Source of the DNA: a candidate division KSB1 bacterium
GTDB taxonomy: Bacteria; Zhuqueibacterota; Zhuqueibacteria; Residuimicrobiales; Krinioviventaceae
NCBI GenBank assembly: GCA_034521575.1
Contig: JAXHMJ010000005.1
Coordinates: 620,001 to 684,000 of the forward strand
Reading direction: 5' to 3'
Length of the DNA: 64,000 bases
A program made the translations under genes and the position numbers. Of this stretch, positions 8-14,964 are shown piece after piece. Within the stretch, counting starts at the first letter, position 1; each line of letters begins with the position of its first letter. The notes beneath the pieces were generated by a model. That model searched no databases. It saw only the letters and a list, made by a program, of their open reading frames with translations, and had not been told where the DNA came from.

Positions 8-3000
8 GTCCAAATCGGATTCGAATCCTTTGATACACGCCAAATTGATCCCAATAAACCGCCTGCCCTTGTTGAAATCGGTGAAAATTTAAGCGTCAGC
101 CTTGACGGGCTGCGTGTGAATGTTGCGTCAGAGACGGATTCTGTTTTATTTTCCGGAAATATTTACAGCCGTTTATTTGCAAATCATGACGGCTCCGCCT
201 CCAAAGCGATTCCGTTTACCGCTGATCTGAGTACAGACAGCGCTCAATTTCATCTGGACGCATCCCTGCTGAGTCAGGAAACCCTGCCCCTGGGATGCGG
301 TGAGTTCCGTGTTCTGTCCAATGGTTCACAAAGTATGCACGTCTCGGCTCCGCTCACCCGCAATATTTTTGAATTGACGATTCTGCAGGGGATCCTTTCT
401 CTGCCGCGTCTGTCTGAGGGATTTGATCTCACCCTGAACCAGCTATGCATCGACCCGGACAGCGTCAGTATTCCGGATATCAATCTGGCCTCCGGCAATG
501 AGCAGGTCCTCTCTTTGTTCGGAACAGATATTACGGTAAACGGGATATCATTCAACATCCCCTCTCCCGACCTGCTTGAGCTGCACCTCAAGGGAAGTAT
601 GCTTTTGTTCGGCAAAGATATCGGCTTTTCCGATCTCACGGTCACCACGGATTGTGCGCTGGCCAATGCAAACCTGACCGTCAATCCCGTAGACCTCATT
701 GAAGAGTCGTTGTCGCTTGATTCTCTACGTATACGCAACAGCAATTTATACGTATACGGGATGTTTACCGCTTTCAGGCCGTTTGACAACCTGGGCAGTC
801 TGTATACGATTCGCATTGATACGGAAGGAAATTGGCTTGACCCTCAGGGCAATAAACTGGCGGCAAAATCGATCAACATTCTCACGGGAGAATCCCCCGC
901 GGATGCGGGCATTTCTCTGGGCATGGCGCCGCTGAATGTGGTGTGCAAACTCGCAGATGTGAATCTGAGCTTTAACGGTCCATCCAACAAAGAAGCTTCC
1001 GGCCATATCGATATCGACATCAACAGCTACTGGCCGACCGCTTTTGAAGATGATATCAAAATCCCCATCATGGGATCGCTCAGTTTTCCGGAAACGGACG
1101 GCAGTCAGGACAACTGGCTCATCAATGAGACAAGCGTCTCCGTCATTACCCTCGCCGATTTGCTTAACCTGGAAATGAACAATATATCCGTGCAGAAAGA
1201 TTCGGTATTTGCCATTTCATTGGGTGGAAATTTTTCTTTAAACCTCCCCTCTGCTCAGCAAGATCAGGGCGGCGGCGGTGAATTCAAAGATTTCCTGCTC
1301 AAAGAGGGGACATTTGAATTCGGTCAGGTCGTCAACGTTAATATTGATATCAGCGGCGTCAATGTCCAGGTGAGCAGACTGGCATTCGGGTTTGATTTGC
1401 GCAACCTGGCCACATATGATATCAAATTTGACAATAATGAAGCATCGCTGGAGAACACCACCGTCAACCACAATGGCTTTTACCTGGTGTTCGGCGGCAG
1501 CATCAGCAGCGAACTGTACGGATTTGACGGCGGTATCGATTCACTGCTTGTATTCAAATCCACAGACCGGTTTTACACCCTGATCAAAAATGCGCATTTT
1601 TCCTATTCAGACATGATCGACGGCAGCCTGGATCTTGTCCTCGATGTCGGTCTGGACGAAGTGGATTTCCAGTTTCTCATCGGCGGTCACCTGGATGTGT
1701 CTGATATAGGATTCGCTGCCGTGGGTGAAATCAGTTACAAAAGCACCACTCTGGGAGGAAGCACATTTATGTCGCCCGGATTCGGTTTGTTTCTGGGCGT
1801 TAAATCCGGACTGAACATCACGCTGGCTCCGCTTCCGATCACCATCGAGGGCGCGGGGCTGGGTATTTTCTTTAATGCGGATTCACGGGTTGAGGAACTG
1901 GTGAGATCGCATCTCGGCTTTGAAAACGATACGGCAGACGATTCTTTCTTTGACGCCTATAACGAATATAAAAGCAACTATGCCGAGATTATGACATTTC
2001 TGGAGATCTATGCCTATGGCAGTATATCTATACCGGAACAAGCCATTATGGAAGCTCAGGTGCTGTTTACCCTGGCGACTGATAAAGTGCGGCTTGATCT
2101 CAAAGTTAACGTCCTCGGCAATGAAGAATTTAAAAAATACTGTGAACTGGGAGGATCCGGATTTATCGAAGCCGGCATACCCCAGGATTTCAGTGACTGG
2201 CCGTATGCTGCCGGCAACATCACCATTGGAATGAATGCAAAAGATCAAACCGGAGTGGACCTGATCAGCATGCCTACGCCAGGTGCGACTGAAGGTCAGG
2301 TCGAATTCTTTGTTCTCAAAAACAACTGGGCGCTGCATGGCTCCATCCAGGCAAATTTTGTCAATGCCTTTGAAACAAATTTTGAATTTTTTATTGGTCC
2401 GCCCGGATTTCTGGTTAATGCCGGAATGTCCTATTCCTTTGACGCGGTGGTCGTAAAAGTTGAAATCGGCATGGGAGTCTCGCTCTGGTATGTCTGGGAA
2501 GCGCCCACAGAATGGGGCGGTTACGGCCAGGCCTGGGTGCAGGCGACCTGTATTTCCGAAGCCTTTGCCGGGGTACGCGGTGAACTGGGCGCCGCGCTGG
2601 TCGGAGAACCGGATTTTTATATTTACGGATATGCCGAATTAACCGCCTGGTTCCTGGATTTAGAGTGGAGCAAATGCGTCTGGGTGGAATGGCGCGACGG
2701 TGATATTGACGGCGGAATCGGCGGCGATTCCCGAATGCAGGAAATCATTGCACAGGCCAGCGAAGTTTCAGACCGAATTATGGGTCAGGTGGATACCATC
2801 CAGGATGACATTGCTGAGAGCAAACGCAATGCATTTACCCAGCTCTCCCCGCATGATATTAAAAATATTATCAGTACATTGCGGTCCGGACAGGCTGATT
2901 TTTACTGGAATGATCTGAAAGAGGATGCAAATGCGGTGATAAACAGTCTGGATTATTATATGACATATGTAAGCGGAGAAGATAAAACCTATGTGCAATC

Positions 3001-6000
3001 CTGTAAAACTGTTTTTGTCAATTACAAAAATGAACTAATTCAGGCGTTTAATCCCGACAAACTCGAAGAACTCAACGCAGCCCTCGACGAGTACACCGAG
3101 GCAGTGGAAAATATGAACACGGCCCTTGCCGGTAAAGTGGCCGAGTATCAGGGTATGTATGAATCACTTGGAACCCAAATTCAACAGAACAGCTTTGCTC
3201 TGGATAGTTTACTTGCTTTTTCAGATATAGAAGGTTCACCGATTGAAAATCCCCTGCAATTGAGCATGTCGGAGGGCGGCATCCCGGACTTTAGCGTGGA
3301 CCGGGCCAGAACGAAGGACAATCAGGAAAATACTGCAAAGCTTCAGCAGAGTTTTGACACCTGGTTGATAAACGTACTGGATAAACTGGAAACCATGGAA
3401 CGACTCCGGACACAGCTGTATGCGGGATTCGGACCGGGCAGTAAAATAAGCGATATCCAGGGTGAATTCATTGCATCGCTGCTGAAAGCCGATATTATGG
3501 GAACAGCCTTGCTGGAAAAAATGAGTGAATTTCATGATTTTTATCTGACCAGAAAAGACCGGTGTGATAACCTGTATTATCAAAATATCAATGAATTCAA
3601 TAATGTGTTCAGATTCAGCCGCTGGAACCCCGCCATCGGAGATAACAACCAGCAATTCATTAATGAAGCGGTTAAACGTCGATACGACGCTCTGAAGGCG
3701 CTTGCAGGCGGTTCGATCAATATTGATCCCGGAAGCATAGACTCCTGGCTGGCTTCTGAAGAGCTGGCGACCGCCTTTTACAGCATCGTTCCTTTTTTAT
3801 TCTATGACTTTACCCTGACTAAAATGGATTCTTTATACAACGCCATGGTGCCGGCCTATGATCAGGCGTTTTGGGCCAGAAATGAAATCCATCGTGATTT
3901 TACCCTGCAAACAGACGGCATCTGGAATAAATATGCAGAAATTTCCGAGAATCTATACAATTTTTATGATACCCTGATCGATGAAGTCAAGGCCTATGAA
4001 AAGACCTATGCAACATCCGCACCTGTTTCATCTGAAGAGCTGAAAAACAGGATGGACGCGCTCAGTGATGAATTCAGTTTAACCGATTTATCGGGTTTTT
4101 CAGCCGATATTACCGATCCGCAAAAACGTTATACTCCTATCTCGGCTGATTTTAGCTGGACCGGATCCGAGGAAATCTCGGAATATGCATTCAGCATTGC
4201 AAAAGGCGGCACGAATCAGTTTCAATCGATCGGAGATCTGAATCAGTTCAGTCTTGATTTTTTCCTGCCTGTCACCTGGCCTCCCGTTCAAAAACAGGTT
4301 AATGTCCGCACCCGGGTGCGCAATAAAGCCGGTTACGAGGTGGCAGGACAAGTGGTGGATATTGATCTTGAAAAGAGTATCAATCAGTCTTCCTCTTCTA
4401 TCAGGAAGACCACTCCCTATACCAGTGATGACTATGTTATTGCATCGGTCAATTTTCCTGATAATTATGCCGGCAAGGGAGTGAATGTTTTTAAAAATTC
4501 CGGTTCACAAATTCATGTGGATTGGGATGTAAACACGAGCAAAGGTCCCAGCCCCTTTGCTGAATATCGCTATCAGGTTTACCAGCAGAATTCACCCGGG
4601 AATCCGGTTGTCAACTGGACCAGCACCGGCACTTTGAGCGAGGCCACAATACGCGATTTGCGTCTGAATGCCAACACGTCATCCCCTTATATTGTCAAAG
4701 TTGCCGGCTATGATGCCGAAGGAACCGTTCGCTGCACCAGAGAATCACCGCCGTTGTATATTAACCAGACCGCACCGCATTTTCCGGATGATATTCAAAT
4801 GCAAATCATCCGACCCTCCGGCGAAAACCGGGTCGTATTCCAGGGAAAACAGGCCCGGGACTGGTTCTCGGATGAAAACAGCCGTCCCGGTTTGTATGTT
4901 CGTATCGATACTCTGGCCGCCTATCAGTATAAACTGTACTATGAAAACCAGAATCCGGACAGCGTTTCCTGGCAGACGATCGATGGGTATGCTCTGCCCC
5001 AATATGATCATCATGCTTATAAAACAGGCGATGCTGTTCATATTGATCTCGGGGTGTTTCCCTATAAAGCGGATACAAAACTCGCCCTGCGCGCACGCAA
5101 TCTGCATGCAGCAACGGATAACGGATTCGGCCCTGTAAAAACCGTGGATCTACCCCGGCAGGAGGACGAGACACCGCCCCTGGCGCCGTCATTCGACATT
5201 GCCGGAAAAGATGAAAACGGCAATATCCTTCTGAATATTGTCTCCCCTGCCCGAGATCCGGAAAGCGGTATTGCAGGATATCAGTACAGACTTGTGAATT
5301 ATAACAATAATCAACGCAGCATACGGCGTTTCCCCCGGAACGCATTGCAGGTTGATTTTCCGGCTGATTCTGTCTATCCCGGAAAAAAACTGACTATACC
5401 TCTCAACCATGATTCTCTGAATGTGCGCGGTATGTGGGTCGGCGTCTATCTGGCCGGTGTCAATTATTCAGGCGCTCGAGGCGGCAGTGATGTTGATTTT
5501 ATCGGTTTCCCGCCCGACAAACCGGAATTGAATGCATCCTTACAACACATGTCCATACCGGGATCAGACCCTTACACGATATTGAAATTCGCAATCAATA
5601 CAGATCAGCATCCGGCGGATTTTTCAGTGAACCTGAAACTCGGTACAACTCTGAACGGCAGTGATATTGAAAGTGTCAGCTATATGTTCGGTCCCGGTTA
5701 CAGAAATGCACTGGAAAACAGTATTCGATTGCCGGACAGTTTAACCTTCAGCAGTCCGATCTACGTCACTGCACGATCTGTTTCCCGAATGCTTAACAAT
5801 CACCGGGAAAGATCAGATTCTGTCTCTGTTTTTCTCATGACGCCGGATCCCCCCATGTTCACCGAGGTGACGCAAAACGAACAAGGTTATCTGGTTATAC
5901 CGATTTCCTCGCCTGCGTTTAACGGCAGAACACCCGCTTCTTATCAATTTGAAATCCAAAACAGCTTTCGCGAAAATCAGACCGTCGCCAGAGCCTTTCC

Positions 6001-7378
6001 CCTGGACCCGCTGCAGGCTGATTTCAGCAATGACCAGATTCAGGCCGGAGAACAGCTGCAGCTTCCGGTCCTGGCAAAAGATATGGCTCCGACCCTACGG
6101 GTCAAGCTGAAAGCGTACAGTGCAGACGGCAATGTTGCCATAAATGAGGTGCGCTATACGCCTGTTCCTCCCCTGCCCCGGATTAACGGCAGCATTACCC
6201 GTCATTCGCTCTCGAAGGATTATGTACTCCGGCTGCAGGGATATTGGACGGACGCCATCATGCAAAAGAATTCAAGTATCAAGGTCTTTATCGGCAGCGA
6301 AAAAGGCAGCAATGATATTTCTGAAAAATCTCTTTACAATGCCGTCAGTTACGGCAAACAAGGATACAATATTTTCAACCTTCCGGAAGACGTAGGCGAC
6401 TATCAAGAATTGTATTTATCAGCCAGGAATGTAACCGCCGCCGGTCAAAAATCCGCCTCTTTCGATACCGTACTCAGCGTTCCGCCGCCGCTGATGTTTG
6501 ACCAGGTGGCAAAGAATGAACAGGATAATTTGATGATCCACATGCTGAGCAGCGGATTTGCCCCGGATGTAAATGTTGCCGGCTATCAGTTTGCTGTCTT
6601 TATCAATGACGAGACCAAAACGCCCATCCGGCCGTTCCCGGCCAGCTTGTCGGAATTTGACTTTACGCCGCAGCAGGTCATTTTCGGCGAGAATCTCGAG
6701 CTGCCCGTGCACATGTCCGAATTGCCGCTGCAAAAGCTTGTACTGGTTATTCTGAAAGCCATCAGCACGACAGGTGAAACATCAACCCATCAAATAGGTT
6801 ATATGCCGTATCCTCCGATTCCGGTGACAGCTTTTATTGCCCGGGATGATCAGCTGAAATTTCAGGGCAAATTTGAGAATAGTTACCTGTTCGGCGGTCA
6901 ACTGACCCTGCATTTTGCTCTGGGCTCTTTTCCCGGAGGTGATGATATCCTCAAAGGGCAATTCAGTCTCGGTACAGGCGGCTATTACAATGCCTCGTTC
7001 AGTCTAAGTGACGTTCAGGTGGGCGAGTATTATCATTTATCCAGCTGGTACCTGAAAAACAATCGGAAATCCGGAGTCTATCAAAAGCAGTTGACCGTTC
7101 CCTGCGAACCGATGTTTGTCGAGATCCGACAGCAAGATGATCAGTCCCTGAGTTTGCCGATTGTCTCCACCGGTTTTAACGGTGATCCGGAACTCAAAGG
7201 ATATCAGTTTGCGGTGGGCAGCGCATCCGGCCAGTATGATGTACGGCCGTTTCCCGCGTCTGAAACCATGGACTTTACCCCGGATCAGGTGCAGACAGGC
7301 CGGAACTTCGATCCTCCAGCAGCCGACCCTGGGCCTGCCGGAGAAATGTTTTGTCGCACTCAAAGCCGTGCACTCTAA
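8..7378 (+). CDS. Giant secreted/surface protein, 5'-partial, first fragment of a frameshifted gene
   Basis: I do not recognise a named family. The frame is open from base 8. A GTG at 116 could be called as a start, but there is no signal peptide there and protein-like sequence continues upstream, so the true start lies before the window. Roughly residues 1-830 are beta-rich and glycine-rich with repeating hydrophobic strands. About 870-1340 is helical and coiled-coil-like. About 1360-2420 holds repeated Fn3/Ig-like modules in which the phrases 'GYQF' and 'FPxxxxxxDF' recur at the same place. This architecture suggests a long extracellular or envelope-spanning structural protein. The frame ends early at 7378. 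Its last repeat resumes in another frame near 7306, so a single-base indel there splits the gene. The two genes downstream are also secreted and close, consistent with an operon. Confidence 0.75.
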   Translation, partial: VQIGFESFDTRQIDPNKPPALVEIGENLSVSLDGLRVNVASETDSVLFSGNIYSRLFANHDGSASKAIPFTADLSTDSAQFHLDASLLSQETLPLGCGEFRVLSNGSQSMHVSAPLTRNIFELTILQGILSLPRLSEGFDLTLNQLCIDPDSVSIPDINLASGNEQVLSLFGTDITVNGISFNIPSPDLLELHLKGSMLLFGKDIGFSDLTVTTDCALANANLTVNPVDLIEESLSLDSLRIRNSNLYVYGMFTAFRPFDNLGSLYTIRIDTEGNWLDPQGNKLAAKSINILTGESPADAGISLGMAPLNVVCKLADVNLSFNGPSNKEASGHIDIDINSYWPTAFEDDIKIPIMGSLSFPETDGSQDNWLINETSVSVITLADLLNLEMNNISVQKDSVFAISLGGNFSLNLPSAQQDQGGGGEFKDFLLKEGTFEFGQVVNVNIDISGVNVQVSRLAFGFDLRNLATYDIKFDNNEASLENTTVNHNGFYLVFGGSISSELYGFDGGIDSLLVFKSTDRFYTLIKNAHFSYSDMIDGSLDLVLDVGLDEVDFQFLIGGHLDVSDIGFAAVGEISYKSTTLGGSTFMSPGFGLFLGVKSGLNITLAPLPITIEGAGLGIFFNADSRVEELVRSHLGFENDTADDSFFDAYNEYKSNYAEIMTFLEIYAYGSISIPEQAIMEAQVLFTLATDKVRLDLKVNVLGNEEFKKYCELGGSGFIEAGIPQDFSDWPYAAGNITIGMNAKDQTGVDLISMPTPGATEGQVEFFVLKNNWALHGSIQANFVNAFETNFEFFIGPPGFLVNAGMSYSFDAVVVKVEIGMGVSLWYVWEAPTEWGGYGQAWVQATCISEAFAGVRGELGAALVGEPDFYIYGYAELTAWFLDLEWSKCVWVEWRDGDIDGGIGGDSRMQEIIAQASEVSDRIMGQVDTIQDDIAESKRNAFTQLSPHDIKNIISTLRSGQADFYWNDLKEDANAVINSLDYYMTYVSGEDKTYVQSCKTVFVNYKNELIQAFNPDKLEELNAALDEYTEAVENMNTALAGKVAEYQGMYESLGTQIQQNSFALDSLLAFSDIEGSPIENPLQLSMSEGGIPDFSVDRARTKDNQENTAKLQQSFDTWLINVLDKLETMERLRTQLYAGFGPGSKISDIQGEFIASLLKADIMGTALLEKMSEFHDFYLTRKDRCDNLYYQNINEFNNVFRFSRWNPAIGDNNQQFINEAVKRRYDALKALAGGSINIDPGSIDSWLASEELATAFYSIVPFLFYDFTLTKMDSLYNAMVPAYDQAFWARNEIHRDFTLQTDGIWNKYAEISENLYNFYDTLIDEVKAYEKTYATSAPVSSEELKNRMDALSDEFSLTDLSGFSADITDPQKRYTPISADFSWTGSEEISEYAFSIAKGGTNQFQSIGDLNQFSLDFFLPVTWPPVQKQVNVRTRVRNKAGYEVAGQVVDIDLEKSINQSSSSIRKTTPYTSDDYVIASVNFPDNYAGKGVNVFKNSGSQIHVDWDVNTSKGPSPFAEYRYQVYQQNSPGNPVVNWTSTGTLSEATIRDLRLNANTSSPYIVKVAGYDAEGTVRCTRESPPLYINQTAPHFPDDIQMQIIRPSGENRVVFQGKQARDWFSDENSRPGLYVRIDTLAAYQYKLYYENQNPDSVSWQTIDGYALPQYDHHAYKTGDAVHIDLGVFPYKADTKLALRARNLHAATDNGFGPVKTVDLPRQEDETPPLAPSFDIAGKDENGNILLNIVSPARDPESGIAGYQYRLVNYNNNQRSIRRFPRNALQVDFPADSVYPGKKLTIPLNHDSLNVRGMWVGVYLAGVNYSGARGGSDVDFIGFPPDKPELNASLQHMSIPGSDPYTILKFAINTDQHPADFSVNLKLGTTLNGSDIESVSYMFGPGYRNALENSIRLPDSLTFSSPIYVTARSVSRMLNNHRERSDSVSVFLMTPDPPMFTEVTQNEQGYLVIPISSPAFNGRTPASYQFEIQNSFRENQTVARAFPLDPLQADFSNDQIQAGEQLQLPVLAKDMAPTLRVKLKAYSADGNVAINEVRYTPVPPLPRINGSITRHSLSKDYVLRLQGYWTDAIMQKNSSIKVFIGSEKGSNDISEKSLYNAVSYGKQGYNIFNLPEDVGDYQELYLSARNVTAAGQKSASFDTVLSVPPPLMFDQVAKNEQDNLMIHMLSSGFAPDVNVAGYQFAVFINDETKTPIRPFPASLSEFDFTPQQVIFGENLELPVHMSELPLQKLVLVILKAISTTGETSTHQIGYMPYPPIPVTAFIARDDQLKFQGKFENSYLFGGQLTLHFALGSFPGGDDILKGQFSLGTGGYYNASFSLSDVQVGEYYHLSSWYLKNNRKSGVYQKQLTVPCEPMFVEIRQQDDQSLSLPIVSTGFNGDPELKGYQFAVGSASGQYDVRPFPASETMDFTPDQVQTGRNFDPPAADPGPAGEMFCRTQSRAL

Positions 7379-7814
7379 CGGCGTCACCGATATCTGTGAA
7401 CAGTTTTTTTATCCGCAGCCTCCGACACCGGTTGTCCGGTTACTGGGACTCTATCAGCCTGCGGAGGGCAATACAAACATTCTCAGATTTGAAGTTGAAA
7501 ACACATCGATTGACAGCAAAACAGGCCATCTGATTCTTGCTGCTTATCACGGATCCCGGCACTCTATCATTGTCACTGAGGATGGCAGGTACAGCTATCC
7601 TACCTGGTATTGGTCAATTGTTTACAATGAGAATTCACCGAATCCGGTCATAGAGTGCCACTTGACAAAATTAATGCCGATTGGCTGGGATTATTATGCT
7701 GAATTTAAAAGCGCGGATCGATATCGGGATAAAAAATCAGGCACGTATACGCTGAAATTCGTTCTGGGCTCTGATTTGAAATTACTCAATGTTGAGGTCG
7801 TTCAAGAGCAATGA
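7306..7814 (+). CDS. Giant secreted protein, C-terminal fragment after a frameshift
   Basis: This is the real continuation of the preceding giant gene, not a separate gene. In the earlier repeat the sequence after 'DFTPQQV' runs into 'LVLVILKAIS'. The matching text here, 'CFVALKAVHSNGV', lies in this frame and starts where the upstream frame becomes nonsense. It adds about 168 residues of a last Ig-like repeat and a beta-rich C-terminus ending at 7814. There is no own start or ribosome binding site. It ends 24 bases before the next start codon. I see no C-terminal sorting motif. Confidence 0.65.
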
Positions 7815-11298: not shown

Positions 11299-12309
11299 TC
11301 AACAAAACGGTTTTAAAAAGTTATAGACACATTCTCCCAGTACGTTGATATTGTATCCGCCCTCCTGACATATTAATGTCGGGATTGACAAATCTGACAA
11401 CATTCCGCCGATTTCAGTATAGTCAGATGTCTCCAGAGTAAACCCGCCTATCGGATCAGATTTGTGTGTGTCAAATCCCGCGGAAATGATGAAAAAATCC
11501 GGGGCAAATTGATTTATAGCCTTTACCGCCGTCTGTACTTTTTGCATATAAGCATGGGAATCAGATTTCAGGGGAAGGGGTAAATTCAGATTGGTCTGTT
11601 TTCCCTGACCGGCGCCTGTTTCTTGCGCATATCCCCAATAGTAGGGATACTCTACTTCTGTATCCGCATGAATCGAGGCGGTAAAAATAAATTTTCGATC
11701 ATAGAAAAATTCCTGAGTGCCGTTGCCATGATGATAATCAATATCGAGCACCGCCACACTTCCATGCTGAGATAAATATTCAGCGGCAACAGCCGCATTA
11801 TTAAAATAGCAGTAACCGCCGAACACGCGGGGACCCGCGTGATGGCCGGAAGGCCGGCACAGGGCGTAAACCGCACGTTCACTTGCTTCCAACAGGATAT
11901 CGGCCCCAAGCAACGCGCATTCTGCCGAAGCGCGCGCCACCTCAAAAGTTTTCTTCATAATGGGTGTCACCGCATCCGTACACCAGATTCCGCCCCACAG
12001 GGGATTATCCAAACGCTGGCGGAGATGAGCGCCCTCACCCGGAAACAGATCCGGATAAATTTCCTCACCAGCACGGGTGATGCTTTCGGATGTTTTTTTA
12101 ATAAAGTCATGATAGGGATGCATACGGGCAATGAGACGTTCAGGATAGGGTTTCGCAGTCACCCGTTCAAACGCATTATCGTTCAGCAAATGATGCTTGA
12201 TGGTGTTAACACGTTGCGGGGTGTCTTTGGTTTCATAGGTTTCCGGTCCCAGCTGAAACTTCCACTGAGGATTGTGCAGGTCATCATTATACTTTTCAAT
12301 CATTTTCAT
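11299..12309 (-). CDS. Histone deacetylase family / acetylpolyamine-type amidohydrolase
   Basis: Zinc-dependent deacetylase of the arginase/HDAC fold, about 336 residues. I place the start at the ATG 12309-12307. It overlaps the stop of the upstream aminopeptidase gene as ATGA and has GGAG about 8 bases before it, so translation is probably coupled. The catalytic motifs are complete: RPSGHHAG with the two catalytic histidines, GGYCYFNN, DIDYHHGNGTQ with the zinc ligands, SAGFDTHKSDPIGGF with a further aspartate ligand, and EGGYN near the end. Bacterial relatives deacetylate acetylpolyamines, acetoin-related compounds or other N-acetyl amides, and the substrate here is not evident. Its coupling to a D-amino-acid-type ligase/aminopeptidase fusion suggests an acylated peptide or amino-acid derivative. 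That is inference. Confidence 0.88.
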   Translation of the reverse strand: MKMIEKYNDDLHNPQWKFQLGPETYETKDTPQRVNTIKHHLLNDNAFERVTAKPYPERLIARMHPYHDFIKKTSESITRAGEEIYPDLFPGEGAHLRQRLDNPLWGGIWCTDAVTPIMKKTFEVARASAECALLGADILLEASERAVYALCRPSGHHAGPRVFGGYCYFNNAAVAAEYLSQHGSVAVLDIDYHHGNGTQEFFYDRKFIFTASIHADTEVEYPYYWGYAQETGAGQGKQTNLNLPLPLKSDSHAYMQKVQTAVKAINQFAPDFFIISAGFDTHKSDPIGGFTLETSDYTEIGGMLSDLSIPTLICQEGGYNINVLGECVYNFLKPFC

Positions 12310-12614
12310 TTCAGCATCTCCAAAATTCGGCCGGCAGGAATAGCGGGCGCAGAACGCTGCAACCGTCCGTTCATGCCGCGCGAACAAAACACAGCATTCA
12401 TCACGGCTTCCTCCGTGGCCTCGATCACCGCTTCATAAACGGGATTAATATGCGCATCCGAAATACACGTTAAAGTGATAAATTTTGACTTTGACAAAGA
12501 TGGACGCAAAGTACGATTGGCCACACTGAACGCAAAAATAATCTCACCGCTTGACGAAGCGGCAATCGAACCCGTACGGCCTAATCCCAATGCCGCGCGT
12601 TTGGAAATACGGTT
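12306..12614 (-). CDS. DmpA/P1 family aminopeptidase, C-terminal fragment after a frameshift
   Basis: This is the C-terminal end of the ligase-DmpA fusion, shifted into another frame by one base near 12612. The text RISKRAALGLGRTGSIA is the standard DmpA-family segment that follows 'ATDxPL..xQL'. The tail AVIEATEEAVMNAV is also typical of the family end. The stop TGA (12308-12306) overlaps the ATG of the HDAC-family gene. There is no separate start signal, so it should be read with the upstream fragment. Confidence 0.8.
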   Translation of the reverse strand, partial: NRISKRAALGLGRTGSIAASSSGEIIFAFSVANRTLRPSLSKSKFITLTCISDAHINPVYEAVIEATEEAVMNAVFCSRGMNGRLQRSAPAIPAGRILEMLK

Positions 12615-14424
12615 CGAGCTGACTGCTGAGTAAAGGAATGTCCGTGGCGATAATAACGATCACAGAGCCATCAGAATCGTCGCGTCGTCCATGCTTTTCA
12701 TATTGCTCATCCAGCCGTCGACCGATAACATTGCCTTCAACCGTCAAATGATGCATTTTGCCGAAATTTGACAGAACCAAAACACCCACCGTAAACTCGC
12801 CTTCGGTCAATGGGACTATGCGCGAAGCGGTTCCGACGCCGCCCGCAAAATCAAACGTGATCATACCGGCGCCGGCGCCGACCGATCCCTGTTGCACCGG
12901 ACCGTCAACTGCGTTTTTAATCGCTTTTACGGCATCGCCGGCTGAATTGAATCCGATACGAACATCATTCAAAAAGGAATCATCCGCCTCCCCAACAACC
13001 GGCAGAATCACATCGGTATCGATTCCAAGATCAGGATGTTTTTCCGTCATATATTGGATGACACCGTTGTGCACCCGTCCGACTGAATGTGAATTGGTCA
13101 ACAAAATAGGTGTTTCCAGCCATCCCCACTCCAGGATTTGATCCAATCCCAGCATTTCCCCCACTCCATTCAAAACGAATCCACCGGCCACCAGCCGATT
13201 CTTAAACACCCGGCTGGAAGGAATGATCGCGGTAACGCCGGTGCGAACAGCCGAAAGTCCTTCCACACCGGGTATACGCACCTCATCCTGAATGCGGGTG
13301 TAATGGCCGACTTTGACGCCTTTGACATCGGTAATGGCATTGTTCAAACCGGTCGGATAACGGCCGGGGATATGTCCCAGCTCGCGCAAAGTCGGATTCT
13401 GCCCGCTTTCAGACAATACAATCTGCCTGCGTATGTTTCGGAGCGGGATGCCAAATCGTTTTGCCGCAGATCGCAGAATCAAACGCAGCACATCCTTAAA
13501 GTCCAGTCCCATCACCGCGGCTGCCGTCATCAAAGACGCATTCGGGTGCAGACTGGGCAGTGGATTCAATTCGATAAAATAGGGATCACCATTGCGGTGC
13601 AGTCGTATATCCACTCGACCAAAATCAGGACAATTCATAGCATCAGAAACCTGTCTGACCAGCCCCAGACAGGCCGCTTGCTGCTGTTCTGATAAATCAG
13701 CCGGACAGTGTACATGCACGGCGCGTGCGGCATTTCCGCCCTGTTTCATATCATAATCATAGATATTGAATTTTGCGCCACCCTGCAGATCAAAGGTATG
13801 TTCAACAACAGGCAGCCATTGTCCGGGAAAAGCTTCCAGAAACGGGATGCTGAGTTCCTTGCCTTCTATAAATTCTTCAACCACCAATCCCGCCGGATAA
13901 CGACTCAAAAGCTGATCGATGCGCTGCTCGGCCCTGGCATGAGTTTCTACAACAGAGTCCTGAGTAATCCCCTTGCTGGAGCCTTCAGAATTGGGTTTGA
14001 TCATCAGGGGATAGGTCAGATCATCGGGAAGCTGGCGGCTGCTCTGTGTTATCAATACACCTTTGGGTACATTGATATGTTTAGAGCTAAGGACGGTTTT
14101 TGCCAGATGTTTGTCCAAATTCAAATGCAATAAAGAAGCATTGCCGCCGGTAAACGGGATATTCAATTGTTCATACAAACCCGGAAAAAACGCTTCTCTG
14201 CTACTGCCTATGGTTCCTTCGGCAACATTGAAAATAATATCCGGATTGCTGTTGAGCAGCCGTTCCACCACATCATCCGGTCTGCCGGAGACTTCAACAG
14301 GCGTAACCGTATGACGCAAGCTGGAAAGTGCGCTGCAGATTCGATCCACATCTTCCCGAGTCAGCAGTTCCGCGCTCTCTTCATTTTGGTCTGTCCGAAG
14401 GTTGAATGCGACGGTGATACGCAT
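12544..14424 (-). CDS. Fusion: D-Ala-D-Ala ligase-like ATP-grasp domain plus DmpA-type aminopeptidase (S58), frameshifted
   Basis: Residues about 1-325 are an ATP-grasp enzyme of the D-alanine--D-alanine ligase family: NVAEG, the EGSSKGI loop, VVEEFIEGKELS, and FIELNPLPSLHPNASL with the magnesium ligands. With no stop between, residues about 335-626 are a DmpA (L-aminopeptidase/D-esterase, family S58) domain: RELGHIPGRYPTG, NAITDVKGVKVGH, GGVGTASR. The Gly-Ser autoprocessing site sits in SDGSVIVIIATD. S58 enzymes cut themselves at this bond and expose the N-terminal serine nucleophile. The ATG at 14424 has GGAG 7-8 bases upstream. About 25 residues after the nucleophile the frame slips, and the end continues in 12306-12614. 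A ligase joined to an aminopeptidase suggests making and trimming of a small peptide or D-amino-acid conjugate. Confidence 0.85.
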   Translation of the reverse strand: MRITVAFNLRTDQNEESAELLTREDVDRICSALSSLRHTVTPVEVSGRPDDVVERLLNSNPDIIFNVAEGTIGSSREAFFPGLYEQLNIPFTGGNASLLHLNLDKHLAKTVLSSKHINVPKGVLITQSSRQLPDDLTYPLMIKPNSEGSSKGITQDSVVETHARAEQRIDQLLSRYPAGLVVEEFIEGKELSIPFLEAFPGQWLPVVEHTFDLQGGAKFNIYDYDMKQGGNAARAVHVHCPADLSEQQQAACLGLVRQVSDAMNCPDFGRVDIRLHRNGDPYFIELNPLPSLHPNASLMTAAAVMGLDFKDVLRLILRSAAKRFGIPLRNIRRQIVLSESGQNPTLRELGHIPGRYPTGLNNAITDVKGVKVGHYTRIQDEVRIPGVEGLSAVRTGVTAIIPSSRVFKNRLVAGGFVLNGVGEMLGLDQILEWGWLETPILLTNSHSVGRVHNGVIQYMTEKHPDLGIDTDVILPVVGEADDSFLNDVRIGFNSAGDAVKAIKNAVDGPVQQGSVGAGAGMITFDFAGGVGTASRIVPLTEGEFTVGVLVLSNFGKMHHLTVEGNVIGRRLDEQYEKHGRRDDSDGSVIVIIATDIPLLSSQLEPYFQTRGIGIRPYGFDCRFVKR

Positions 14425-14598: not shown

Positions 14599-14603
14599 AA
14601 TAG

Positions 14604-14964
14604 TGGAGACGGCGGGAGTCGAACCCGCGTCCGAGAAAGCGGCCATAGCGGCCTCTACATGTTTAGCCGGATGCTTGATCTCGATCCACCGGCCTGCAAC
14701 CGACAAAGTCCGGCGGATCCAACTCTCTAAATATCACACATGATCCGAGAGCGTGGTCATGTGATCACCTGCCGTGATCGTCGTCCTTCCCCGGTTCCAG
14801 CAGGTCAAACCCGGAGAGGACGCTGGCTGCTATTACGCAGCCAGGGCGTAATTATAATTGTCTGCAAATAATTTTTGCCTCCCGGTTGATTAACGAGGTG
14901 ACCGAGACATCCTCGACATGCAGCCACTAACACCACGGATCCCGTCGAAACCCATTTCGTCCCC
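14604..14964 (-). ncRNA. ssrA: tmRNA (ssrA)
   Basis: Transfer-messenger RNA, which rescues stalled ribosomes and adds a degradation tag. The 5' end GGGGACG (from 14964) pairs with CGTCTCC at the 3' end (14611-14605). Next to the 5' end is the conserved ATGGGTTTCGACGGG block, and the 3' end holds the T-arm GGTTCGACTCC. The tag frame runs from 14865 to 14833 and reads GCA GAC AAT TAT AAT TAC GCC CTG GCT GCG TAA, giving ADNYNYALAA. That fits the usual A...NYALAA pattern. The discriminator A at 14604 is followed by CTA rather than CCA, so CCA is apparently added after transcription. The length of 361 nt is normal. Confidence 0.95.

Follow-up and report, generated by a model that had tools for sequence, protein, structure and literature searches.

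A conserved fusion of an ATP-grasp ligase to an S58-family aminopeptidase co-occurs with the beta-lysine acetyltransferase gene ablB in uncultured bacteria

A gene in which a ligase of the ATP-grasp type, similar to D-alanine--D-alanine ligase (Ddl), is joined to a DmpA/BapA-type aminopeptidase of family S58 was identified in a candidate division KSB1 bacterium, within a window of 64,000 nucleotides (the whole stretch of DNA that was analyzed; assembly GCA_034521575.1, contig JAXHMJ010000005.1, positions 620,001 to 684,000), where it is coupled to a gene for an amidohydrolase of the HDAC family. The same fusion is present in at least six of the 1,649 genomes searched, which belong to four phyla and include the window genome, and each of these six genomes also carries ablB, the gene for beta-lysine N-acetyltransferase, with a score over the TIGR03827 cut-off. 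This co-occurrence is the strongest contextual pointer to the function of the system. We tentatively favor, at somewhat less than even confidence, the reading that the fused protein is a bifunctional synthetase/beta-aminopeptidase which would make and break a peptide of beta-lysine or N-epsilon-acetyl-beta-lysine, and that the HDAC-fold protein would be its companion deacetylase.

Conservation of the fusion and its co-occurrence with ablB

An earlier note on the window, made from its sequence alone, had advised looking for the same fusion and neighbor elsewhere, and five further fusions were recovered, all of them intact: one in the Spirochaetes metagenome-assembled genome (MAG) GH29 (locus L003, 718 amino acids) and four in genomes G044 (L084, 703 amino acids), G821 (L205, 716), G1503 (L206, 707) and G1470 (L207, 720). 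Pairwise identity among the fusions is 47-76%. By phylum, the fusion occurs in at least two of 82 genomes of the window's own phylum (the window counted), at least one of 392 in that of L003, at least one of 395 in that of an Ignavibacteria MAG and at least two of 384 in the Omnitrophota; none was found among 396 Acidobacteriota genomes in a strict-threshold search. These counts are lower bounds because in the other phyla the search thresholds were strict (1e-82 or 1e-85) and no more than two top candidates were scored in any genome; the genomes surveyed are, moreover, incomplete. The HDAC gene adjoins the fusion in four of the six loci (G000, the window genome, and G082, G044 and G821), which bears out the coupling that the earlier note had described.

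Recurrence of the intact fusion in five other genomes excludes a chance origin. In a tree of 42 S58 rows the S58 parts of all six fusions form one clade (support 100/99) against 36 stand-alone rows, some of which are identical copies, and the ligase parts of three fusions likewise form one clade (100/100); both ligase trees held only these three of the six, and the long rows L075 and L080 were removed before the second. From the S58 clade of six and the ligase clade of three we infer a single fusion event, which would have been followed by spread between phyla. The identity of the D/E letter in the Ser-Gly-(D/E) motif was not used, its count having failed for 21 of the 42 S58 rows. Split orthologues were not encountered: each of the six family members is a fusion. 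The closest stand-alone S58 genes that were inspected, six from Acidobacteriota, showed no ligase or HDAC gene on the stretches fetched. Stand-alone S58 genes and stand-alone ligases are common in the window's phylum, but given the intact fused relatives we dismiss as scarcely conceivable the idea, raised in the earlier note as a possible refutation, that the loss of a stop has artificially joined two genes which are separate in the orthologues. The stand-alone S58 genes of the phylum were rejected as split orthologues because the fusion S58s form a clade of their own and because neither a ligase nor an HDAC gene accompanies the nearest stand-alone genes on the stretches fetched. Genomes G074 and G075 were not counted as the same system; there, two other genes separate a ligB-like gene from an S58 gene, at a distance of about 2.4 kb.

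In the three other phyla ablB is present in all four fusion genomes and in none of 60 sampled non-fusion genomes, the latter being the 58 genomes listed first for these phyla and two reached through loci, with no random draw. Within the window's phylum 14 of 82 genomes carry ablB, both fusion genomes included. Pooled, this gives six of six fusion genomes against 12 of 140 non-fusion genomes (Fisher p = 1.5e-6, uncorrected for kinship). The window genome encodes AblA and AblB over their curated cut-offs (766.9 bits against 525.4 for lysine 2,3-aminomutase, and 304.8 against 205.1). A KamA-type aminomutase gene adjoins ablB, or is one symporter gene away, in G000, G044, G082, G821 and G1503, and the aminomutase gene and ablB flank a sodium/solute symporter gene in G000, G044, G045, G821 and G1503. 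Thus locus L156 of the window genome (contig C2, 7202-10802) has ablA, the symporter gene and ablB in series, with a frame change in the N-terminal part of ablB; the symporter may carry the acetyl-beta-lysine solute. In G1470 ablB lies on the fusion's own contig, 5.5 kb off, and no aminomutase was found on the stretch that holds the two. Overlapping frames were dropped when open reading frames were picked, and some genes, such as kamA in L215, were detected by tblastn only. In the window's phylum the HDAC subfamily, too, is associated with ablB (nine of 13 against five of 69).

Motifs and relatives of the three domains

The domain identities given in the earlier note, namely Ddl-like ATP-grasp, S58 and HDAC-family, were all upheld by Pfam profile matches, the first two in the 626-residue frame of the window with 92.6 bits for PF07478 (cut-off 24) and 269.2 bits for PF03576 (cut-off 23.9). 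In the ligase half the ATP-grasp motifs KP..EGSS.G, GR(V/I)D and E.N are present in all six fusions. The N-terminal domain of a structure model of the L003 protein matches Ddl structures, among the Foldseek matches listed, with target template modeling (TM) scores of 0.71-0.86 at 18-22% identity. The fused ligase thus has the fold and the ATP- and metal-site motifs in common with D-alanine--D-alanine ligases, from which it differs by this low identity (about 18-22%), by NCBIfam scores under the curated cut-offs (147 against 243 bits for NF002378; 118 against 245.65 bits for TIGR01205) and by its N-terminal motifs. Two motifs that occur in the Ddl-type rows L077 and L082, GG...ERE.S and HG..GEDG, are absent from all six fusions; in place of the second the fusions have N(I/V/L)(A/S)EG..G..RE, as do aminomutase-linked ligases of Omnitrophota. 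We take GG...ERE.S and HG..GEDG to be substrate-binding motifs of Ddl. Since the NCBIfam scores fall short of the curated cut-offs, an identity as D-Ala-D-Ala ligase was rejected.

The closest stand-alone relatives of the fused ligase in Omnitrophota are tandem genes adjoining an aminomutase gene, mostly at 30-38% identity. The window protein brought up 60 Omnitrophota ligase loci, out of 80 retained from 179; 55 of them have a KamA-type gene no more than 3.5 kb away on the same strand, and the remaining five are cut off by a contig end directly behind the second ligase. In the window's phylum, too, tandem ligases are found with a KamA-type gene, joined in several genomes by a gene for a bifunctional GNAT-HDAC protein; the tandem ligases of L126 and L127, which have no aminomutase gene nearby, are an exception. 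Conserved clusters in which two Ddl-like ligases in tandem accompany a KamA-type aminomutase are seen in L128 (6732-12260), L132, L133 and L161 and also in L010 and other Omnitrophota loci, in some genomes together with a small GNAT and the bifunctional GNAT-HDAC protein, and may represent a second beta-lysine pathway. Other ATP-grasp architectures were also met. The window's own genome has an ATP-grasp domain fused to an M20-like domain right after a class-I glutamine amidotransferase gene (L123 on contig C1, 6020-8751), with a relative in L135; methyltransferase-ATP-grasp (Ddl-like) fusions are present in three genomes of the window's phylum (L134 5184-7259, L136 5732-7654 and L137 6010-8010); and L062, L064 and L065, from Acidobacteria and Ignavibacteria MAGs, hold single ligB-like genes next to a divergent neighbor whose start reads by eye as C39-type-peptidase-like.

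For the peptidase half the predicted autoprocessing bond, Gly586-Ser587 in the window and Gly590-Ser591 in L003, aligns, by our count of positions, with Gly249-Ser250 of structure 1b65. The Gly-Ser site, the conserved Asn and Ser-Gly-(D/E) are all present in the five intact fusions; the 626-residue frame of the window includes Gly-Ser and Asn, and Ser-Gly-Glu is confined to the second frame. N-terminal sequencing of a DmpA-type enzyme located the start of its beta chain at SIIVVIATDA (PMC9570944; this and the other papers cited are drawn on in excerpt), and L003 reads SIIVVVATDI at the same point. Because the predicted bond matches this processed bond, a cut there would leave the ligase on the alpha chain, in agreement with the earlier note. 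That note had also expected the second half of the peptidase to be released; the chains of known S58 enzymes remain assembled after cutting, so that release is not to be expected. The L003 model has a mean predicted local distance difference test (pLDDT) value of 84.9 and a predicted TM-score (pTM) of 0.54, with a low-confidence linker at 330-343, and thus consists of two confidently modeled domains whose relative placement is unsettled. Its C-terminal domain matches 2drh and 5tzb (target TM-score 0.92, Foldseek). Sequence, fold, Gly-Ser site and the Asn and Ser-Gly-(D/E) motifs are common to the fusion and the S58 family (DmpA, PH0078 and the beta-aminopeptidases BapA and 5tzb, the last from Burkholderia), whereas the solved enzymes of this family and the stand-alone S58 genes met here are without an N-terminal ligase.

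In the HDAC-family protein of the window an alignment to 6phr shows that the HH, D-H-D and Tyr motifs of the active site are kept; we take these to be the catalytic residues of HDAC-family enzymes. Its closest solved relatives are acetylpolyamine amidohydrolases (6phr, which is the nearest, 9gkz and 3q9b), with which it shares the active-site motifs and from which it differs in being coupled to a ligase-peptidase and in having sister GNAT-HDAC fusions in aminomutase clusters. In a tree in which two long rows were joined, the HDACs of the window, L003, G044 and G045 group with ten GNAT-HDAC proteins in one clade (99/99); several of the ten belong to aminomutase clusters, and nine further HDAC-family rows from the window's phylum fall outside the clade. 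GNAT-HDAC proteins occur in 10 of the 82 genomes of this phylum. A polyamine deacetylase of P. aeruginosa, PA1409, also accepts a plain acetyl-lysine substrate (PMC4784309).

The gene pair in the window

The earlier note had placed ligase and peptidase in one frame free of stops, with the HDAC start overlapping the stop of that frame as ATGA. Both domains do share a frame in which no stop codon separates them (Table 1), but the peptidase in it is incomplete: the S58 match covers profile positions 1-236 of 307 only, and the missing C-terminus (ALGLGRTGSIAASSSGEIIFAFSVAN, ALGLGRTGS...GRILEMLK, then a stop) sits in another frame, beyond a single-base frameshift located at about 12.62 kb by DNA alignment with two intact homologues. 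The ATGA overlap is likewise present, but its stop is that of this second S58 frame and not that of the 626-residue frame, which stops at 12544. As read, the window copy would therefore be without most of the S58 beta chain. An assembly indel is a likelier cause than a recent true mutation, since two similar frame changes were seen in the same assembly (one at about 7.3 kb in the window, the other in the N-terminal part of ablB) and since no decay is seen after the shift, identity to the L003 homologue being 68% after it (query 606-709) and 64% before. We consider it unlikely that the copy is a true recent pseudogene, with a peptidase that is dead in this strain, as the single base by which it differs from both intact homologues compared might suggest; the sequence past the shift is conserved as well as that before it, and the two other frame changes came to light among the few genes of this assembly that were read closely. 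Such a pseudogene would be compatible with any functional reading of the fusion.

Table 1. Positions in the window of the fused gene, its parts and the adjoining HDAC-family gene
Feature	Position	Strand	Remarks
Fused gene, frame as it stands	12544..14424	minus	626 amino acids + stop; PF07478 residues 129-316, PF03576 residues 362-613
ATP-grasp ligase domain, about residues 1-325	13450..14424	minus	KPNSEGSSKGI at 143, NVAEGTIG at 66, IELNPLPS at 284
Inter-domain linker, about residues 326-345	13390..13449	minus	Boundary read from alignment; pLDDT <50 at 330-343 in the L003 model
S58 alpha-chain part, about residues 346-586, last residue Gly586	12667..13389	minus	
Codon of Ser587, predicted autoprocessing nucleophile	12664..12666	minus	SDG/SVIVIIATD; DmpA G249-S250 RG/SIIVVLATD (slash, predicted or known cut)
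Remaining S58 beta chain	12306..12663	minus	Frame switch at about 12.62 kb; last ~100 residues in the other frame, stop 12308-12306
Single-base frameshift region	12606..12624	minus	Placed by comparison with intact L003 and L084
ATGA, HDAC-family start codon over stop of second S58 frame	12306..12309	minus	
HDAC-family (acetylpolyamine-amidohydrolase-like) amidohydrolase, 336 amino acids	11299..12309	minus	PF00850, 232 bits; CRPSGHHA, DIDYHHGNGT, SAGFD, EGGYN

Just upstream of the fusion lies a transfer-messenger RNA gene with the tag ADNYNYALAA (14603-14964, minus strand), and the frame change at about 7.3 kb, which is indel-like, falls in a large repeat protein (116-7814). Two hairpins with T-tracts were read by eye at about 11.22-11.26 and 14.57-14.60 kb; a terminator scan, run with a sigma-70 scan, listed neither of them and gave no terminators above the shuffled expectation.

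Proposed function, alternatives and relation to known systems

As to substrate, processing in vivo, direction of the reaction and physiological role, we infer the following scheme. The first gene would encode an N-terminal ATP-grasp amino-acid ligase, a short linker and an S58 aminopeptidase of the N-terminal nucleophile (Ntn) type; the S58 part would cut itself at Gly-Ser, and in the assembled enzyme the ligase would remain part of the alpha chain. The ligase would join beta-lysine or N-epsilon-acetyl-beta-lysine to another amino acid, giving a small beta-peptide which may serve as a compatible solute or as a store, and the S58 domain would hydrolyze this peptide from its beta-amino end once it is no longer wanted. 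The HDAC-fold deacylase encoded by the second gene would take off the acetyl group, and the two-gene unit would in this way serve the ablA-ablB pathway encoded elsewhere in the same genomes. A wider form of this scheme, which takes in as a sister form the clusters uniting tandem ligases, an aminomutase and the bifunctional GNAT-HDAC enzyme, is possible but doubtful.

Several points weigh against the proposed function. In the window's phylum ablB is found without the fusion in 12 of 80 non-fusion genomes, so that the fusion is not needed for the ablAB pathway. The fusion and ablAB usually stand at separate loci (in G1470 the distance is 5.5 kb), and the link between them is therefore one of co-occurrence, which a shared saline habitat or co-transfer could also yield. 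The HDAC gene is not adjacent to the two Omnitrophota fusions, and beyond the fusion clade the tree does not settle where the fused ligase stands among the aminomutase-linked ligases. Moreover, L- and D-amino-acid substrates are also accepted by S58 enzymes, and a chain that carries both ligase and peptidase could, if not regulated, make and break its product in a futile cycle.

Of the alternatives, the one which survives best is that of a catabolic module, in which the S58 and HDAC-family enzymes would degrade N-acetylated beta-lysine peptides or related solutes, either taken up or self-made, and the ligase would have another substrate or a role in salvage. Two of the three activities are hydrolytic, the symporter gene between the aminomutase gene and ablB would fit uptake, and the acetylpolyamine amidohydrolases of P. 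aeruginosa support growth on acetylated amines (PMC4784309). We nevertheless hold it to be unlikely, in that the catalytic residues of the ligase are kept in all six fusions and the ligase is in each case covalently tied to the peptidase, an arrangement which suggests that synthesis and hydrolysis are controlled together. It is improbable that the fusion acts as a functional analogue of glutathionylspermidine synthetase/amidase (GspSA) in a cycle of polyamine amides, with the second gene coding for an acetylpolyamine amidohydrolase; GspSA shows the same two-activity logic (PMC6272389) and the nearest solved HDAC relatives (6phr and 3q9b) would fit, but the association found is with ablB, and the HDAC clade holds the GNAT-HDAC proteins of aminomutase clusters. 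About as improbable, finally, is the D-amino-acid or peptidoglycan pathway suggested by the earlier note, in which the ligase would make a D-amino-acid dipeptide and the S58 part would be a D-aminopeptidase. The closest solved sequences are indeed Ddl for the ligase and 2drh and 1b65 for the S58 part, of which 2drh is annotated as a D-aminopeptidase; this support consists of family names, however, and stands against the sub-cut-off Ddl scores, the missing GG...ERE.S, the replacement of HG..GEDG in the manner of the Omnitrophota aminomutase-linked ligases, and a genomic context that points to beta-lysine.

Among the titles listed in the literature searches none concerned an ATP-grasp-S58 fusion or its coupling to an HDAC; a link of ATP-grasp with aminomutase and beta-lysine gave no paper, and the one paper listed for DmpA with ATP-grasp was on a carnosine-synthesizing aminopeptidase. 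The earlier note knew of no described pathway of this make-up; partly similar systems exist in the synthetase-amidases and in an osmolyte operon. Synthetase-amidase enzymes are known for thiol-polyamine conjugates. In GspSA (PMC6272389) and in trypanothione synthetase-amidase (TRYS; PMC2784880) an amide is made with ATP and then hydrolyzed by another domain of the same polypeptide, as proposed here for the fusion. On comparison of domain content, the amidase of GspSA and TRYS is an N-terminal CHAP-type cysteine enzyme, whereas the fusion has a Ddl-like ligase and, C-terminally, a hydrolase of the autoprocessing S58 Ntn type; no CHAP or Gsp synthetase domain was found in the fused protein in a Pfam scan at E 0.01. 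By analogy, the fusion system may be regarded as a variant of the synthetase-amidase kind which is built from other domains. In the operon of the dipeptide osmolyte N-acetylglutaminylglutamine amide (NAGGN), Ngg has an ATP-grasp domain and the peptidase is of the M42 type. This operon (AsnO, Ngg and an aminopeptidase; PA3459-PA3461) likewise brings together an acetylation, a peptide ligation and a peptidase gene for a single small dipeptide, but, as described in the excerpt, it is glutamine-based, employs an amidotransferase, has its peptidase (there called a glutamyl aminopeptidase) as a separate gene and includes no HDAC (PMC8070244). The ablA-ablB pathway of N-epsilon-acetyl-beta-lysine, whose ablB all six fusion genomes share, has been described for the salt adaptation of methanogens as one of two enzymes and, in the excerpt of that account, has no ligase, S58 peptidase or HDAC, unlike the fusion genomes (PMC1224877).

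The fusion would thus represent the logic of the synthetase-amidases rebuilt from a Ddl-like ligase and an autoprocessing S58 peptidase. Its co-occurrence with ablB offers the S58 family a natural substrate that can be tested, and suggests that the beta-lysine metabolism of uncultured bacteria extends past acetylation. For the Ddl-like ligase genes of Omnitrophota that adjoin an aminomutase gene, a concrete alternative function is gained. Taken together, the conserved fusion and the beta-lysine salt-protection genes suggest a small-peptide metabolism which has not been described before.

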